Shown here in pieces: positions 2,467 to 28,548 of a DNA stretch of 64,000 nucleotides. The DNA is from Firmicutes bacterium HGW-Firmicutes-15 (GTDB lineage Bacteria > Bacillota > Syntrophomonadia > Syntrophomonadales > Syntrophomonadaceae). The position numbers and the translations under genes were made by a program. The DNA lies in assembly GCA_002840245.1 (NCBI GenBank), contig PHAA01000012.1, positions 1-64,000 of the forward strand, read 5' to 3'. A model generated the notes under the pieces. It saw only the letters and a list, made by a program, of their open reading frames with translations. It was not told where the DNA came from and did no database searches. The number at the start of each line of letters is the position of its first letter. Position 1 is the stretch's first letter.

Positions 2467-4661
2467 TTCTCAAGATCAAGGTTGGCAAGTGCTCGACGCG
2501 TGAACACCTCTAATAATTTCCATTGCGCGATGGGGATGCTGTCAATTAGGTCGATCGGTATCCGGTAAACTTGGCAGGGTACCTTGGCCCGCGCAGTAAA
2601 CATCAAATCACCCTTGTTAAATAACCGTTCCTCTCCCACAAAATCCCCGATTTGCATGCATTCGACCTCTTGGTTGCCGGCATAGATAGCAATTTCGCCA
2701 TCGTAGAGCAGAAAAATACCGCCAATTGCTGACTCCGGCAAAAGCTCCCCCTGATCGTAGGTTTCCAGCTGCATGGCTTGAGTGATTCTGCTTTTTATAG
2801 GGCAGGAAATTCTTTCGCCGAATAGCCAAGTCTTTTCCAGAAGCGATCTTTTGCCAATCTCATTTCGGGTATATTCCAGCAGATTGTTGCGGCATAAAAA
2901 CTCAATATACAGACGGCTGGGGATTCGCAGGGCCTTCACATAAGTAACCGCCCGGTAGGTTCCGTCCACAGTCACATCCTTCAGGCAGGACAATTCTCCA
3001 ATCATCGAGCCTGCCACCATTTGTCTTTTAATCCCGCTTTCCGGAGCAATATACTCCAATAATCCATTCACAATGCAAAACACATACGAGCTTTTATTAC
3101 CTTTTCTAAGCAGAATGGTGCCAGGATTATATGAAACCAGCGGGCAGTTTAAAATCATTTCCAGCTCGTAAGCTGGCACCCCAGGGAAGAACGACCGCAA
3201 ATGCTGAAAGGCCAAGGGTTTCGCATAATCACGATCTGCAGCTATCAAAACATCTACCGCCCCAAACGAGGCCGTATCTCCGATGGATTTTTGCAAGTCA
3301 CTAAGTGGAGTCGCGGTGTGGCTGAGTAATATTTTGCCGGAAGTATCATCGGTAAAATCATCGGCATTACCATGAATCAACCCTCCGCCAATATCGATTT
3401 TTTTAAGTTTAAACGGGGTAAGATAGACTGTTTTGATCCGATCATAGTAATCCTGCGTTATCCCGCTTTGGGCTTGGTCATCCGTTATCATTCCCCTTAA
3501 TACTTCCAGCGAGGCGATATCTGCCAAATGGGCATAGGCCTCGTAGCCATCATCCCACAGGGTACGAAAGAAGATAACACAGGTCTCTACCGGATGGGGT
3601 GAATACACCGGCTTGATTTCAAGCCCTTCGATATTGTTCCAGGTGTCAGCCTGCAGATCATGTATTTCAAAGTATTTTGCAAATAGCGATTCATCCATTC
3701 CTGTTAAAGCGGCTAGTTTCTTCATAACCGAGGCCCGCACCAGCGGAGTTGAATAATACTTGATACGGTGGTCGGAGCGAATCAGGCTCGTAAGGCCGTT
3801 GAAGTGGTCATCATGGGCATGGGTCTGAAAAACGCCTTCAATTTCACTCACACCTATTCCCAGAGCCTGCAGGCTGCTGAGCAGGTTAGGTCCAGCATCA
3901 ACCAGGTATATTTTCCCCTGAAAAGTAATTATGCTGGCCATACAGGGCCGGTTAACATCCCATCCATCACCTTCTCCAGTATGAATAACGGAGAAATATT
4001 CCCGGTTAAAATGATGATATCCAAGGTAATAGGGAATTTCATATTCCTCTTCGAGCGCTAGATTAAGATCCACAGGTATGTGCTCTCCCTGGTAGATGAA
4101 TTCATATTGATTGAGACCCTGGCGCTGGATAAATACGCCGTTTCTAAGCTCCGTAGGTTCCCGTCCTACAATTCTGGTTTCCAGCAGTTCCTCGGTCAGA
4201 CGAATTCTATTAAAAGCAAATTTCAGCTTAATCCGCATCATCTCCCGGGCCTGTTCAATGGAAATACCTGTCTCCACAATCTCCTCTAGAGATGTCAACC
4301 CGTAGTTACCCCGATATATGTATTCCGCCTGCGCCTGGACTTCATTCTCAATTCCTATGAGAAGAGGCTTGATCCCCTTGTTGTTGGGATGATTCGGCAG
4401 AATCATGCCCTGACGGTACAGCATTTGCAGGACCGGGAATTCTGCTAGATTGGCAAAACGCTCTTTCTGCATCGGTATATCGGAAAGCAGAATTGCATTA
4501 GGACCGGTTTCAAACCGCACCCCATCCCTTTCTTCGGTGGTAATCAAGCCCATTTTCATCAGATGCTTTACACTATCCGCAGGACAGCCACATAAAACTG
4601 CCAGATTCGCCTCGGGAAATTCCACCCAGAATATGCCGGCTGCTACTCTGATTTTTCGCAA
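2463..4661 (-). CDS. Metallo-beta-lactamase-fold protein with two cyclic-nucleotide-binding domains (732 aa)
   Basis: The N-terminal segment (about 1-220) contains a FWVEFPEANLAVLCGCPAD motif of unknown role. The middle (about 240-470) is a metallo-beta-lactamase fold with the HAHDDH metal signature. The C-terminal third has two Crp-like cyclic-nucleotide-binding beta-barrels, the first with GSMIGELSCL and the second with IGDFVGEERLF. No DNA-binding domain follows, so it is probably a regulated hydrolase and not a transcription factor. A TTG at 4661 preceded by GGAGGG is preferred over the ATG 24 bases upstream, which has no binding site. The substrate is unknown. It stands alone between metal-resistance remnants, and its stop overlaps the end of the converging arsB-like fragment. 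Confidence 0.8.
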   Translation of the reverse strand: MRKIRVAAGIFWVEFPEANLAVLCGCPADSVKHLMKMGLITTEERDGVRFETGPNAILLSDIPMQKERFANLAEFPVLQMLYRQGMILPNHPNNKGIKPLLIGIENEVQAQAEYIYRGNYGLTSLEEIVETGISIEQAREMMRIKLKFAFNRIRLTEELLETRIVGREPTELRNGVFIQRQGLNQYEFIYQGEHIPVDLNLALEEEYEIPYYLGYHHFNREYFSVIHTGEGDGWDVNRPCMASIITFQGKIYLVDAGPNLLSSLQALGIGVSEIEGVFQTHAHDDHFNGLTSLIRSDHRIKYYSTPLVRASVMKKLAALTGMDESLFAKYFEIHDLQADTWNNIEGLEIKPVYSPHPVETCVIFFRTLWDDGYEAYAHLADIASLEVLRGMITDDQAQSGITQDYYDRIKTVYLTPFKLKKIDIGGGLIHGNADDFTDDTSGKILLSHTATPLSDLQKSIGDTASFGAVDVLIAADRDYAKPLAFQHLRSFFPGVPAYELEMILNCPLVSYNPGTILLRKGNKSSYVFCIVNGLLEYIAPESGIKRQMVAGSMIGELSCLKDVTVDGTYRAVTYVKALRIPSRLYIEFLCRNNLLEYTRNEIGKRSLLEKTWLFGERISCPIKSRITQAMQLETYDQGELLPESAIGGIFLLYDGEIAIYAGNQEVECMQIGDFVGEERLFNKGDLMFTARAKVPCQVYRIPIDLIDSIPIAQWKLLEVFTRRALANLDLEN

Positions 4662-7278: not shown

Positions 7279-8934
7279 TTATATCTCCATAATAATAGGC
7301 ATTATCATAGGTCTGCGACCTGTCTTTTCATATAAATGTTTCCCTAACTTATCACGAATCTGCGATTTAATAGATGCCCATTCGGTAATATGCTTCTTCG
7401 AACAGTGTTCCAAGGCTTCATTAACTTTGGCTTTAGCATTTTCAATCAATTGTTCCGACTCCCGCACATAAACAAACCCCCGGCTAACAATATCCGGACC
7501 GGATACCACAAGGCCATTGCTAAGGGTTACCACTACTATTATGATACCATCCTGGGACAGTTGCCGGCGGTCTCTAATCACAATATTGCCCACATCACCT
7601 ACACCCAGTCCATCTATCAGCACTCTGCCGGCAGCAACCTTACCAGCCACATGAATCTTCTTCTCGCTAATCTCAATAATATTACCGTTTTCAGCCACGC
7701 ATATATGCTCCCGAGGTATCCCTAGACTTTCTGCCAATTGGGCATGTTTCACCTGATGGCGATATTCTCCATGTACCGGTATAAAATACTTGGGCTTTAT
7801 GATGTTTAGAAGGAGCCTCAGTTCATCCTGCGAAGCATGCCCGGAAACATGTACCCCAACTTCTCTATCGTAAATGACGTTTGCACCCTGTTTGAAAAGC
7901 AAATCGATAGTCTTGGAAACTAGTTTCTCATTGCCTGGGATAGGGGTGGCCGATATAATGACCGTATCCCCCGGTTTAATCCCTACCCACCGGTGGTCGG
8001 CGGTGGCCATTCTGGTCAGAGCGGACATCGGTTCTCCCTGGGAGCCGGTCGTTGCAATAACGATTTTTTCGGGCGGGTACTTATTAATATCTTCCATTTC
8101 AATAAGAATATCCTCAGGTATATTGAGATAACCCAGTTGACCAGATATCTTAACATTGTTAACCATACTGCGACCTACAACGGCAACCTTACGGCCATAT
8201 TTCTCAGCCGTGTTTATGGCCTGCTGAACCCGGTGCACATTAGAGGCAAAGGTAGTAACAATGATACGTCCCTCGCATTTACCGAAGAGCTCATCAAAGG
8301 TCTTTCCTACAACGCTTTCAGACTTAGTAAATCCGGGTCTCTCAGCATTGGTGCTGTCACCCAACATAACCAGTACGCCTTTTTCGCCCAGCTCTGCCAT
8401 TTTACGAAAATCAACTTTCTGTCCATCTACTGGAGTCTGATCAAGCTTAATATCTCCCGTATGCAAAATAATTCCCACAGGGGTATGGATCGCTATGCCA
8501 AAACAATCTGGAATGCTATGACATACCCGAAAGAACTCAATTTCAAACGGCCCAATTTTAATCATGTCCCGCGGACGCATGATATTCAATTCTACGTTCT
8601 TAAGATTATGTTCCTTAAGTTTTCCTTCCACAATTCCTAAGGCTAATTTACTGCCGTAAATCGGCGGGTTAATTTCTCTCAAAACATAGGGCAGTGCACC
8701 TACATGATCTTCATGACCATGAGTCAAAAGAATGGCCTTTACTTTATCTTGGTTTTCAACCAAAAATGATATATCAGGAATGACTAAATCGATCCCCAGC
8801 AGTTCGTCTTCAGGAAAGGCGAGCCCGGAATCTATGACTACAATAGTATCTTCATACTTAATTACCGTCATGTTCTTGCCAATTTCCCCCAATCCGCCCA
8901 GGGGAATAATCTGTAGCTTTGCTTGGTTTGACAA
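7279..8934 (-). CDS. rnj: Ribonuclease J
   Basis: This is a 551-residue metallo-beta-lactamase/beta-CASP ribonuclease with combined 5'-3' exonuclease and endonuclease activity in mRNA decay and rRNA maturation. The metal-binding THGHEDH sits at residues 71-77. The beta-CASP insertion and the SGHASQDE and PVHGEYRH motifs follow, and the C-terminal domain is full length. A GAGGAGGTG site precedes the start. The gene stands alone. Its 5' region carries two TATAGRAATCCGCTCAAT direct repeats 30 bp apart. A fragment of its 3' half is duplicated at 22022-22140 and its leader is duplicated near 17.6 kb. Confidence 0.95.
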   Translation of the reverse strand: MSNQAKLQIIPLGGLGEIGKNMTVIKYEDTIVVIDSGLAFPEDELLGIDLVIPDISFLVENQDKVKAILLTHGHEDHVGALPYVLREINPPIYGSKLALGIVEGKLKEHNLKNVELNIMRPRDMIKIGPFEIEFFRVCHSIPDCFGIAIHTPVGIILHTGDIKLDQTPVDGQKVDFRKMAELGEKGVLVMLGDSTNAERPGFTKSESVVGKTFDELFGKCEGRIIVTTFASNVHRVQQAINTAEKYGRKVAVVGRSMVNNVKISGQLGYLNIPEDILIEMEDINKYPPEKIVIATTGSQGEPMSALTRMATADHRWVGIKPGDTVIISATPIPGNEKLVSKTIDLLFKQGANVIYDREVGVHVSGHASQDELRLLLNIIKPKYFIPVHGEYRHQVKHAQLAESLGIPREHICVAENGNIIEISEKKIHVAGKVAAGRVLIDGLGVGDVGNIVIRDRRQLSQDGIIIVVVTLSNGLVVSGPDIVSRGFVYVRESEQLIENAKAKVNEALEHCSKKHITEWASIKSQIRDKLGKHLYEKTGRRPMIMPIIMEI

Positions 8935-21375: not shown

Positions 21376-22020
21376 TTGTCATTTATGCTGAAACCATATT
21401 GCACATTATGTAATGACCAGACCGATTTCTTCTACGAATCTAATCAGAGGCATTACTATCAATGTAAGAACTGTTCATCCATCATGCTAGCCCCAAAACA
21501 CTTTATTTCTTTAGAAGAGGAAAGAAAGCGTTATAGAAAACATAATAACTGTGTAGACGATCCTAGATATCAGAAGTTTGTATCCCCAATAGCCGATGAG
21601 ATAAAACGCGATTTTACACCGGAGCATACAGGTTTAGATTTTGGGGCAGGCCCTGGTCCGGTGATTACGAAGCTTCTGCAAGATGCAGGTTATAACATCG
21701 ATTTATATGACCCCTTCTTTTGGAATCGACCCGAAGTTCTGAGATTAAAATATGATTATATCGCCTGCTGCGAGGTAATCGAACATTTTAACGATCCCCT
21801 CAAGGATTTTCTGCTCTTACAATCGCTGTTAAAGCCAGGTGGGGTTTTATATTGTATGACTGAACTCTATTCGGACCAAGTGGATTTTAAAAACTGGCAC
21901 TACAAAAATGATCCGACTCATGTTTTTTTCTATCATAAAGATGCTTTCGAATGGATTAAAGGCAATCTGCATTTTCATAAGTTACACATAAGCAATCGTT
22001 TAATTAAGCTTACCATGTAA
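21376..22020 (+). CDS. Class I SAM-dependent methyltransferase with zinc ribbon (214 aa)
   Basis: The N-terminus has a CTLC...CKNC four-cysteine zinc ribbon. Residues about 83-100 give the SAM-binding motif GLDFGAGPGP, and later motifs YIACCEVIEHF and LLKPGGVLYCMTELY complete the Rossmann methyltransferase. The product ends DPTHVFFYHKDAFEWI..., as in methyltransferase-23 family proteins. The substrate is unknown. The TTG at 21376 lies five bases from AGAAAGGA, and ATG at 21385 is an alternative. A broken paralogue of its C-terminal half lies at 13682-13929. Confidence 0.85.
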   Translation: MSFMLKPYCTLCNDQTDFFYESNQRHYYQCKNCSSIMLAPKHFISLEEERKRYRKHNNCVDDPRYQKFVSPIADEIKRDFTPEHTGLDFGAGPGPVITKLLQDAGYNIDLYDPFFWNRPEVLRLKYDYIACCEVIEHFNDPLKDFLLLQSLLKPGGVLYCMTELYSDQVDFKNWHYKNDPTHVFFYHKDAFEWIKGNLHFHKLHISNRLIKLTM

Positions 22021-22140: not shown

Positions 22141-22417
22141 TGGGTTAACTGCCGCGAGTAGCTGTGGGTATTATAAAGACTATTCTTATTGGCGTAAAAA
22201 GACAATTAGCCTAATATCTAGTCATTATAACAAAAAGGCACAGTTCAGGGGGGCTGCTAAAAGAACATAGTTTTACTTAATGCTTCCTTAGTGTTATCTG
22301 AGGTGTACCCTCTAGTGTTGGTTTTGTAGACGAAATAAGCTATTTTGGGGATCACGAATAAATTGCTGGTAAAGACTAGAAGCTAAGTATTAATAAGCTT
22401 GGAAAGGAGTGGCGTTT
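22141..22417. other. Intergenic region without recognisable genes
   Basis: No gene or clear terminator is visible between the RNase J fragment and the ku remnant. The stretch presumably holds the former ku promoter. Confidence 0.3.
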
Positions 22418-22525
22418 TTGAAAACACTTTGGAAGGGTGCAGTGAGTTTTGGCCTGGTAAATATCCCGGTAACCCCATATTTGCTACAACATAGTGGGTT
22501 CACAGGGGGGAGCCTTTTCCGCTAG
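22418..22525 (+). pseudogene. Truncated ku gene (N-terminal 24 codons)
   Basis: A TTG start behind AAAGGAGT gives LKTLWKGAVSFGLVNIPVTP, the nearly invariant N-terminus of bacterial Ku, the DNA end-binding protein of non-homologous end joining. The similarity ends after about 24 residues and the frame stops at 22525. Nothing resembling the Ku core or a LigD gene follows. The start and ribosome site are intact, so a short peptide may still be made, but end-joining function is lost. Confidence 0.8.
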
Positions 22526-23638: not shown

Positions 23639-23812
23639 GTGGGTGATACTAAATCGGAGATATCAAAGGCTGTTGGGACTGCTGCTGCCAAAATGAAAGG
23701 ACCATTTGACTATGAAGATACGTCCAAGTGTTTAGACAAAATCGCGGCTGAATCAAGAGATTGCTTCGATCCTGTGGCAAAAGAGCACCGTGAGAAAGAA
23801 GATAAGCATTAA
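23639..23812 (+). CDS. Small uncharacterised protein, copy B (57 aa)
   Basis: A GTG start seven bases after a perfect AAGGAGG opens a product beginning MGDTKSEISKAVGTAAAKMK, with GPFDYEDTSKCLDKIAAESR and an acidic/basic tail. It is a full-length homologue of copy A at 901-1071, with substitutions scattered along its length and the same phase, as expected under protein-level selection. No known family, signal or motif is evident. It is followed by a strong stem-loop at 23837. The protein is probably soluble and helical. Confidence 0.75.
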   Translation: MGDTKSEISKAVGTAAAKMKGPFDYEDTSKCLDKIAAESRDCFDPVAKEHREKEDKH

Positions 23813-24070: not shown

Positions 24071-24112
24071 CGTAACAGAGACGTCTGCAAAATTACAGAC
24101 GTCTCTGTTACG
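24071..24112. repeat. 17-bp perfect inverted repeat
   Basis: Two perfect 17-bp arms (each starting or ending at CGTAACAGAGACGTCTG or its complement) enclose an 8-base loop. No T-run follows and no gene is adjacent. It is the longest perfect hairpin in the window and could be a regulatory RNA structure, a protein-binding site or part of a mobile element. Confidence 0.75.
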
Positions 24113-24279: not shown

Positions 24280-24345
24280 GAGGCGTAGATTATGTTGGAG
24301 GTGGTTGCTACCGGGGTTTATACTGCAGTTAATTATATTATGCAA
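24280..24345 (+). repeat. Element shared with the left-edge locus
   Basis: Contains GGCGTAG, GGAGGT and GGTTTATACTGCAGTTAAT and resembles about 1610-1705. In both places it lies a few hundred bases downstream of a copy of the same small gene and on the same strand. It directly precedes the candidate structured RNA at 24371-24482. Confidence 0.45.
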
Positions 24346-24370
24346 GACCTGACTGACTATATATAGAAGT

Positions 24371-24482
24371 AAGTCGTGAGCGGAAGCGCTGCGACTGGGA
24401 CGCGCGGGAGATGGTGCTAGGTGAGGGCCGAGAGGCCCGAACCGGCACTTCTTGTAAATACCTCAAAATGAGGGGTTTTTTT
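24371..24482 (+). ncRNA. Candidate structured RNA with terminator
   Basis: Three consecutive stems can be drawn. First, AGTCG-AGCG / CGCT-CGACT at 24372-24396. Second, GTGC-GGT-GA-GGGCC / GGCCC-GA-ACC-GCAC at 24414-24448, closed by a GAGA loop and containing a symmetric tandem GA/GA internal loop. Third, CCTC-AAAAT-GAGG followed by a seven-T run at 24461-24482. GC content is far above the flanks. The 5' end is undefined and could reach back to about 24250. I cannot match it to a known RNA family. Confidence 0.5.
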
Positions 24483-24582
24483 GCATAAAAATAAAATTCT
24501 TCTGTCTTTTATCATCTATTTATTATTGTTCTGCACAATCTAATGGTAAAATTGTGCGGAAGTTAAGAAGTAATAGGTAGAA

Positions 24583-24630
24583 ACATAATAGATGTCCTCA
24601 GTTTTGGGGGCATCTATTATGTATGTTTTT
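24583..24630 (+). terminator. 12-bp stem-loop with T-run
   Basis: ACATAATAGATG and CATCTATTATGT pair perfectly around a 16-base loop, followed by ATGTTTTT. It is a good Rho-independent terminator on the plus strand, possibly for a small transcript from 24500-24580. Confidence 0.65.
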
Positions 24631-24695: not shown

Positions 24696-25085
24696 ATAAA
24701 AAAATGACGGTTCTGGGTTTTTGCCAAAATTGGTGTAAACCCTATATTACGGGGCTGACTTTTTCATAAACTTATGATAAACCCTAAATGGCGGGCTTTG
24801 ACTTTTTAACAAATTTATTAAAAACCCTATATTGCGACTTTAGCTGACTTTCCGATAAATTTATCGAAAAGCCTAGATGGCGGTTCTAGGTTTTCGCCCA
24901 ACCATCATAAATTTATGATGGTTAGAGGTTTCCGGATAAACCCGATATACCTTTCTCCCGGTTTTGGGAGAAACCCTAAAGGACGCGCGTCCTCCGGTTA
25001 TATGTTATATGCAGAAAAAAATGACGGTTCTGTCGTTTGCTTAAAATTCACATTTCATAATTTTATGAAACGTGAAAAACCCCAA
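24696..25085. repeat. Array of nested hairpin repeats
   Basis: Six to seven units of about 45-65 bp follow one another. Each has a T-rich arm (TGACTTTTT or GGTTTT), a central palindrome and a complementary A-rich arm with AAACCCTA, then (A/T)ATGGCG or similar. The palindromes differ but pair perfectly or nearly so: CATAAACTTATG, CGATAAATTTATCG (24853-24866), a 24-bp perfect palindrome at 24900-24923, TTTCTCCC/GGGAGAAA, and TTTCATAA/TTATGAAA at 25053-25070. Most share an ATAAATTTAT core. The first and last units both open with AAAAAAATGACGGTTCTG. It is not CRISPR-like, because the variable parts are palindromic. No coding potential is apparent. Confidence 0.75.
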
Positions 25086-25159
25086 GGGAAATATTGAATA
25101 GCTATTGAGCAGATGATAGACTAATATTTAGAGATATTTAGCTTAAGAGGGTGTTAACT

Positions 25160-25279
25160 TTGGCAGATAAAAAAGAAGTGCCGATAACAACAGCAACAGC
25201 AAAAGATTCAGAGGTAGTTAAGGCTATAGCAGATTCTAACAAAAAGCATAGTGAAATGATGAATAAGCTAGCAAAATAG
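25160..25279 (+). CDS. Possible 39-residue protein
   Basis: TTG at 25160 follows AAGAGGG by eight bases and opens MADKKEVPITTATAKDSEVV followed by KAIADSNKKHSEMMNKLAK. The composition is strongly hydrophilic and helix-prone and looks protein-like. No homologue is recognised. It lies immediately after the hairpin array and converges on the gene at 25284. Confidence 0.45.
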   Translation: MADKKEVPITTATAKDSEVVKAIADSNKKHSEMMNKLAK

Positions 25280-25283
25280 CCGT

Positions 25284-25667
25284 TTAAATCCGATCCTGAA
25301 AATACTGTGTTACCAATTCTAGCGCAAAATCTCCTTTTTGGCGGCGGTTATCTTCCCCGGGACATATGAGGTCTAAATTATATTCCGCGCAGAGCCTGTT
25401 TACAACATTTATCTTAACAATTAGGCTGTCATGAATTTTCGTGCGGCTTGCATCAATCCCAGCCAGCATCTCTTTAGTTTCCCTATCGACTTGCCCCTCT
25501 AACATCTGAATCTGAACCCCTTGCTCTACCACCTTCGTGATGTACTGTGCTGCACTCTGCATCAATTGCAGTACATATGCCTTCTTCCGCTTTTTCAATT
25601 CCGCAGGAATATCCGTATCTCGATCGATTTCACAAATTAATTTCTGCAGTATAGTCATTTCGTCCAA
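25284..25667 (-). CDS. Uncharacterised protein, DUF3232-like (127 aa)
   Basis: This is a soluble, largely helical protein with many charged residues, starting MDEMTILQKLICEIDRDTDI and containing a LICPGEDNRRQKGDF segment. It resembles small Firmicute proteins grouped as DUF3232, an assignment from memory that needs a profile search. No catalytic motif is visible. It is a single-gene unit between the repeat region and hicAB. Confidence 0.55.
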   Translation of the reverse strand: MDEMTILQKLICEIDRDTDIPAELKKRKKAYVLQLMQSAAQYITKVVEQGVQIQMLEGQVDRETKEMLAGIDASRTKIHDSLIVKINVVNRLCAEYNLDLICPGEDNRRQKGDFALELVTQYFQDRI

Positions 25668-27594: not shown

Positions 27595-28296
27595 TTGGCT
27601 TTTAATTACTTCGGAGGTCGTGTGTTGAAACTCGGTAGCACCGGAGACGATGTAACGGTACTGCAGACGCTCCTGAATAAGCTGCCCTCTTCTATAGCTA
27701 TACCAGTTACAGTGGACGGAGTATTTGGTTCGTCAACGCAAGCTTCGGTTAAGAAATTTCAGGGCTATTTTGGCTTGACAGTTGATGGAATTGTGGGGAA
27801 AAATACGTTCTTGTATTTTGGCGAAGTAACCGGATCCAATGCGTTTGGTGCACGAACCCTCCAAAAAGGGTCGTCCGGTAATGATGTAACTATATTGCAA
27901 AACCGCATGGCTGGTGATCTCAAGAAATATGCAACTGCACTAGGGATGCCAGCTGACGGTCAGTTTGGTTCCAAAACCCAGGCAGCTGTCAAGTTGTTCC
28001 AAGCTGATAATGGTTTGACAGTTGATGGTATTGTAGGCCGCAACACTTTTAACAAACTCTATGTTAAGACCAATTACGGGGGCCGCTTGCTCCAAAAGGA
28101 TCGCTCTGACCGTAACCAGGGGTTTGATGTATTTTTCTTGCAAGAACGACTAAAGGCTTTGGGTTATTATTCTGGCGCTTTGGACGGTAAATTTGGTTCG
28201 GCGACCGAGACGGCAGTAAAAGCTTTACAAACTGCGTCTGGGATAACTGCGGATGGCGTGGTTGGGCCTAAGACTTATTACCATCTAGGTATATAA
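27595..28296 (+). CDS. Triple peptidoglycan-binding (PGB_1) repeat protein (233 aa)
   Basis: Three copies of the PG_binding_1 fold make up the whole protein (about 8-80, 84-157 and 161-233). Each has the pattern GDDVT.LQ..L, VDG.FGS.T..AVK.FQ and GL.VDGIVG..T. It starts at a TTG 10 bases after AAAGGAGG. There is no signal peptide, membrane segment or catalytic domain, which is unusual for a wall-binding protein. In spore-formers, similar proteins can be spore-associated. Secretion by another route or a cortex-binding role are inferences. Confidence 0.85.
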   Translation: MAFNYFGGRVLKLGSTGDDVTVLQTLLNKLPSSIAIPVTVDGVFGSSTQASVKKFQGYFGLTVDGIVGKNTFLYFGEVTGSNAFGARTLQKGSSGNDVTILQNRMAGDLKKYATALGMPADGQFGSKTQAAVKLFQADNGLTVDGIVGRNTFNKLYVKTNYGGRLLQKDRSDRNQGFDVFFLQERLKALGYYSGALDGKFGSATETAVKALQTASGITADGVVGPKTYYHLGI

Positions 28297-28325
28297 TAGT
28301 AAATATACTGAAAAACATCTGATTA

Positions 28326-28349
28326 AAGCCGGAGCTTGAGCTCCGGCTT
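28326..28349 (+). terminator. Terminator after the PGB protein
   Basis: AAGCCGGAGCT and AGCTCCGGCTT form an 11-bp perfect stem with a 2-base loop, followed by AATTATT. The hairpin is very stable but the T-tract is weak. Confidence 0.75.
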
Positions 28350-28363
28350 AATTATTGGCAATT

Positions 28364-28548
28364 ATTAGGGACTGTCAAGGAATAAAAAGGCACAATACTC
28401 CGAGGATTAACGAAGTATAGTGGGAAAAAGACCGGAGTAAATGGTCGCTCTTTGCCATCCATGGCAACGCTGCACTAGTCCTTCCGTGGACGTCGCGACA
28501 TTAGTCCATCCTTGGACTTCACTGGTTCATTTCTTGATAGTCCCTAAT
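28364..28548. mobile_element. MITE-like element with terminal inverted repeats
   Basis: ATTAGGGACTGTCAAGGAA at the left end and its near-complement ending TTCTTGATAGTCCCTAAT at the right (about 17 of 19 matching) bracket 185 bp. Inside are a TACTCCG/CGGAGTA pair, TGCCAT-CC-ATGGCA, and two related stems AGTCC-TTCCGT-GGAC and AGTCCA-TCCT-TGGACT. No open frame is present. It could be a non-autonomous transposable element, or a large leader structure of the aroF operon. Confidence 0.5.

Follow-up and report, generated by a model that had tools for sequence, protein, structure and literature searches.

Clusters of palindromes in intergenic DNA are known from the REP/BIME elements (e.g. PMC1525189), whose units have a conserved sequence and occur in many scattered copies. 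CRISPR arrays consist of regularly spaced repeats with variable parts between them, whereas the attC sites of integrons (PMC2727003) combine a palindromic layout and little sequence conservation with conserved outer boxes. Another type of palindrome arises by mutation. Template switching at an imperfect palindrome can create a perfect stem in one multi-base event that mimics compensatory change (PMC8794818), and in E. coli quasipalindrome template switching has been investigated as a source of mutations (PMC7202029). Furthermore, hairpin clusters have been reported to terminate transcription, for which a poly-U trail is unnecessary (PMC8355165).

Here we describe an intergenic palindrome array of about 390 nt, located at 24704-25088 of a 64-kb stretch of DNA (the window) from Firmicutes bacterium HGW-Firmicutes-15. 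It is a row of dyads whose arms are specific for each unit and yet match each other, and it was examined by repeat comparison, a palindrome scan and palindrome density in 0.88 Mb of its genome. Like REP/BIME elements, the array is a palindrome cluster in intergenic DNA; however, it occupies one locus, its stems differ, and the same unit is found at the array locus only instead of being dispersed over the genome. CRISPR arrays resemble it in having regularly spaced repeats with variable parts in between, but here the repeats are far from identical, palindromes of about 14-16 nt make up the variable parts, and the neighbouring genes include no cas gene. An earlier note on this DNA had set the array apart from CRISPR, REP and simple tandem repeats, and the repeat identity of 66-78%, the palindromic variable parts and the single locus bear this out. 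With attC sites the array shares the palindromic layout, the low sequence conservation and conserved outer parts, but it lacks attC boxes in each unit as well as cassette genes between units: a search for GTTRRRY / RYYYAAC gave, strand for strand, one chance box pair and none per unit. No integron integrase was seen among the window genes examined.

Several other candidates were rejected. No Rfam family matched the array at the gathering threshold or in a relaxed search for a known structured RNA. Transposon ends of the ISL3 type were discarded because no ISL3 transposase is present in the genome, although an old relic would still be compatible with this absence. A chromosomal replication origin was discarded since dnaA lies on another contig, though the GC skew flips and genes diverge near 22-24 kb. 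Finally, a cluster of intrinsic terminators is disfavoured, as the hairpins are not close after a stop codon and the T residues lie 5′ of the dyads. The most fitting description of the array is a palindrome cluster that stands out by its conserved linkers and by stems that vary strongly yet remain complementary.

Organisation of the array

In all five units of about 40 nt (four within 24713-24883 and one at 24947-24986) the dyad centre is found at an identical position. The four core units, of 40-41 nt each, follow each other at spacings of 42, 43 and 46 nt and are 66-78% identical to the reference copy. Unit flanks read TGACTTT...AAACCCTAWATKGCGG, and the linkers and the AAATTT-like centres are conserved among the units. 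Each unit has a T tract 5′ and an A tract 3′ of its dyad. We built a covariance model (R1) from the five units, which recovers them at 47-56 bits. All five are on the plus strand: U0 (24713-24752; 48.9 bits) carries GGGTTT..AAACCC arms around the inner TTGCC/GGTGT, while U1 (24755-24794; 55.9 bits), U2 (24798-24837; 52.6 bits) and U3 (24844-24883; 52.3 bits) contain the inner dyads TCATAAACTTATGA, TTTTTAACAAATTTATTAAAAA and CGATAAATTTATCG, respectively, and U5 (24947-24986; 46.8 bits) contains the inner hairpin TTTCTCCCGGTTTTGGGAGAAA.

Between U3 and U5 lies the irregular unit U4 (24884-24946), which carries a small hairpin (24927-24942) and a perfect 24-bp palindrome at 24900-24923, exactly where the earlier note had placed it. 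The end of U5 is overlapped by a GC-rich perfect 14-bp palindrome, AGGACGCGCGTCCT (24980-24993). The outlying unit U6 (25021-25088, plus strand) contains the dyad TTTCATAATTTTATGAAA and begins with the same lead-in as U0, ATGACGGTTCTG, which occurs twice in the window, at 24704 and 25021, both inside the array. An 18-nt palindrome with a 2-nt centre is located at 25053-25070, and several dyads within the array are perfect and loop-less. Six to seven units with shared outer arms had been claimed previously. The positions were right, but only five units are true copies of equal length, and the stretches 24884-24950 and 25021-25088 are irregular. Likewise, the flanks are conserved, but most units pair TTT with AAA only, and the full GGGTTT/AAACCC pairing is found in U0 alone.

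Pairing is retained among units with different stems

When nine named pairs were followed across the five units, 91.1% of the cells were paired and 9 cells were altered on both sides. The covariation score of the five units was 0.578, compared to 0.20 or less when the partners were slid by 1-3 columns. Among the units, the stem arms are 40% (columns 9-13) and 32% (columns 20-24) identical; identity is much higher in the flanks, at 73% (5′) and 78% (3′). The arms form 19 of 25 Watson-Crick pairs, a number reached by the true assignment of 3′ arms only, all 119 other permutations (of 120) giving fewer. Pairing is thus retained despite base change, as had been proposed. The kept pairing had also been put forward as an argument for selection on structure, and this claim is unsupported: all of the covariation is between copies that share a locus in a single genome, and the same pattern is produced by template switching, so that selection on structure does not follow.

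RNA folding, suggested earlier as a check, gave z-scores of −5.0 for the plus and −7.5 for the minus strand of the array. The imperfect pairs, read on the plus strand, comprise four G-T and four A-C; in these small numbers there is no strand preference, and therefore no RNA strand is indicated.

With six palindromes per 390 nt, the array is by a wide margin the densest cluster among 882,572 bases of its genome, where the runner-up has four or three, depending on the setting. Dinucleotide shuffles of the array (n=500) were a weaker control, their maximum of 64 exceeding the observed 61 (mean 10, SD 9.3). In 1.8 Mb of loci chosen for other reasons we found a handful of similarly dense clusters, several of which were terminator-like hairpins or identical repeated palindromes. 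The array is real and unusual for its genome.

The array is confined to a single locus

Within its own genome the array is present as a single copy, and its units are confined to this one locus. A DNA search of 60 relatives returned one 27-bp match only, which is AT-rich (genome G031) and has no array around it. Searching 100 relatives and 62 genomes of the class with R1 gave isolated weak matches only; among the relatives' matches at E 0.01-0.06, four were checked and none lies in a palindrome cluster. Phage and plasmid records contained no DNA match to the array. In viral contigs, four DNA patterns gave isolated chance matches and no array, and searches with neighbouring proteins gave no relative. 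As far as the searches reached, relatives contain no similar array of this sequence family, an outcome that the earlier note had named as counting against its interpretation. The array is a single-locus feature rather than one of a dispersed family.

The relatives' contigs end beside a tRNA cluster, short of the syntenic place. In one genome of the same genus (G002), the tRNA-Arg(TCT) of this cluster has the anticodon TCA (L189:2958-3034) and would read UGA. Either an assembly error or a suppressor tRNA may account for this, and under the standard code the aroF frame next to it stays open.

Among 397 other genomes of the phylum, R1 gave one match of 30 bits, with an E-value of 0.0014 per genome, which means that about half a match is expected by chance in the whole of this search. 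This match sits in a row of palindromes in another Bacillota family (locus L138; genome G392, contig C41, about 4230-4490), with the dyads CTTTTACTCAAATTTGAGTAAAAG, CCCCAACTTTGGGG, ATAATCCAATATTGGATTAT, AACGCAATTTTGCGTT and more. The surroundings of L138 read as a prophage, judging from integrase-like and tape-measure-like genes that were named from their sequence and not by family search. Like the array, the L138 row is made of AT-rich dyads that vary in their stems and have AAATTT- or AAATT-like centres; it contains perfect palindromes (24 bp and 20 bp) and lies between converging genes. In contrast, its stems are different, its linkers are mostly different, and one unit only matches R1. The match to R1 by itself is no better than chance; we treat L138 as a looser analogue and not as a proven relative. 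A gene neighbouring the row in this prophage had one weak relative (L192), at a locus without an array.

Genomic context of the array

The array lies inside a 3.2-kb gene desert between two convergent genes, a methyltransferase gene on the plus strand (21376-22020) and a DUF3232 gene on the minus strand (25284-25667). It is 2.7 kb away from the former and about 200 nt past the latter. Beyond the DUF3232 gene follow a HicAB toxin-antitoxin pair and then the tRNA cluster, for which no attachment-type repeats were found. The nearest relatives of a neighbouring protein are, by their names, Bacillota of the Syntrophomonas / Peptococcaceae kind. A 42-codon ORF (25151-25279) is doubtful as a real gene.

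Within the desert there are fragments of host genes. The stretch 22020-22140 matches part of an RNase J gene at 7580-7701 with 91% identity and positions 1374-1496 of contig C4 with 82%, and 22342-22470, which resembles the start of a Ku protein, is 86% identical to positions 73598-73726 of contig C20. The stretch 23645-23799 is 74% identical to 907-1061 of the window; here, a small protein of about 57 amino acids (23639-23812) has a paralogue at the other window end (900-1070; 74% DNA identity) and no match in Pfam or PHROG. By eye, the DNA near 24300-24340 is similar to that at 1660-1690. At 24355-24488 a GC-rich stretch with a strong fold (z −3.8) and a terminator-like hairpin with seven T at its end resembles a small RNA, though no Rfam family matched. 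Two long hairpins are found near the array, at 24071-24112 (20-nt arms, 95% complementary) and 24583-24622 (18-nt arms, 89%). The palindrome TTGCCATCCATGGCAA is common to 28135-28467 of the window and to L222:14889-15148 (contig C31), and is possibly a shared regulatory site.

Discussion

The origin of the array that we tentatively favour, and to which we give a little under an even chance, is a quasi-palindromic DNA module of about 42 bp that would have been tandemly duplicated in an old, decaying gene desert. The module may be what is left of a cis-acting site that once belonged to a mobile element. The stem of each copy would have been rewritten and re-perfected via intramolecular template switching in replication, the flanks meanwhile diverging at a normal rate, and the array would probably have no present function. 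Template switching is suggested by arms that are near-random and yet complementary, by conserved flanks, by stems that differ as blocks, by several perfect loop-less dyads and by imperfect pairs that show no strand preference. This origin is further favoured by an array that is a singleton in its genome, was not found in the relatives searched and lies in a desert with fragments of host genes. The link to mobile elements comes from the comparable palindrome row in the L138 prophage, a single analogue whose model match is at chance level. At known template-switch sites (PMC8794818, PMC7202029), as in the array, stems stay or become perfect while the sequence changes in blocks. However, the known cases are single stems, whereas the array consists of several tandem dyads with conserved linkers, and its putative block changes are deduced from comparing copies. 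Two points speak against this origin: 5-8 dyads that are kept paired in 390 nt are also expected under selection, and the linkers are better conserved than they should be if the arms decay neutrally, a possible sign of a binding site.

Such a site is the core of a possible, though less probable, explanation, in which the array would be bound as double-stranded DNA by a protein, for instance at operator, partition, packaging or replication-control sites that once belonged to a phage or plasmid. The putative protein would read the linker AAACCCTAWATKGCGG..CTGACTTT every 42-46 bp, the dyads acting as spacers or as half-sites of weak specificity. The conserved linkers and AAATTT-like centres are consistent with this, as are the spacings of 42, 43 and 46, which come to about four turns of the helix in the first units, the loop-less dyads, which fit dimeric proteins, and the location of the analogue in a prophage. 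However, true operators conserve their half-sites, which are the variable part here, the spacing becomes irregular in the later units, no replication gene of a phage or plasmid is found near the array, and the DUF3232 protein has no PHROG, phage or plasmid match. Quite improbable, in our view, is that the array represents an undescribed cis-element of mobile elements with a layout common to distant Bacillota prophages, a row of dyads that would be recognised by its shape and a conserved linker and whose stem sequences would be free to change.

The fold z-scores, the covariation among units and promoter-like sites near the array are also consistent with a structured non-coding RNA, predicted as a row of hairpins whose conserved single-stranded linkers would be the functional part of a sponge or scaffold. 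We consider this unlikely, since a selected RNA should favour G-U on one strand and the wobble pairs, in small numbers, show no such preference; moreover, there were no Rfam matches even at a relaxed threshold and no conservation in the relatives searched. Very unlikely, finally, is a cluster of two-way transcription terminators. The array does have a plus-strand gene (21376-22020) on one side and a minus-strand gene (25284-25667) on the other, the L138 row likewise lies between converging genes, and termination by hairpin clusters without poly-U has been reported (PMC8355165). Yet T tracts before and A tracts after the dyads are the reverse of an intrinsic terminator, and this argues against termination. 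In addition, there is only one weak terminator prediction inside the array, better candidates are found at 24460-24476 and 24583-24622, and the array is 2.7 kb away from the plus-strand gene, whereas 98% of the sites in PMC8355165 are within 80 bases of a stop codon.

If the array is mutational in origin, it would offer a small natural example of covariation between tandem copies that may have come about without selection. Covariation is usually read as proof of RNA structure, and the array would then call for caution in covariation-based RNA discovery. If it is functional, it would be an array-type site that is read by its shape and not by its sequence.
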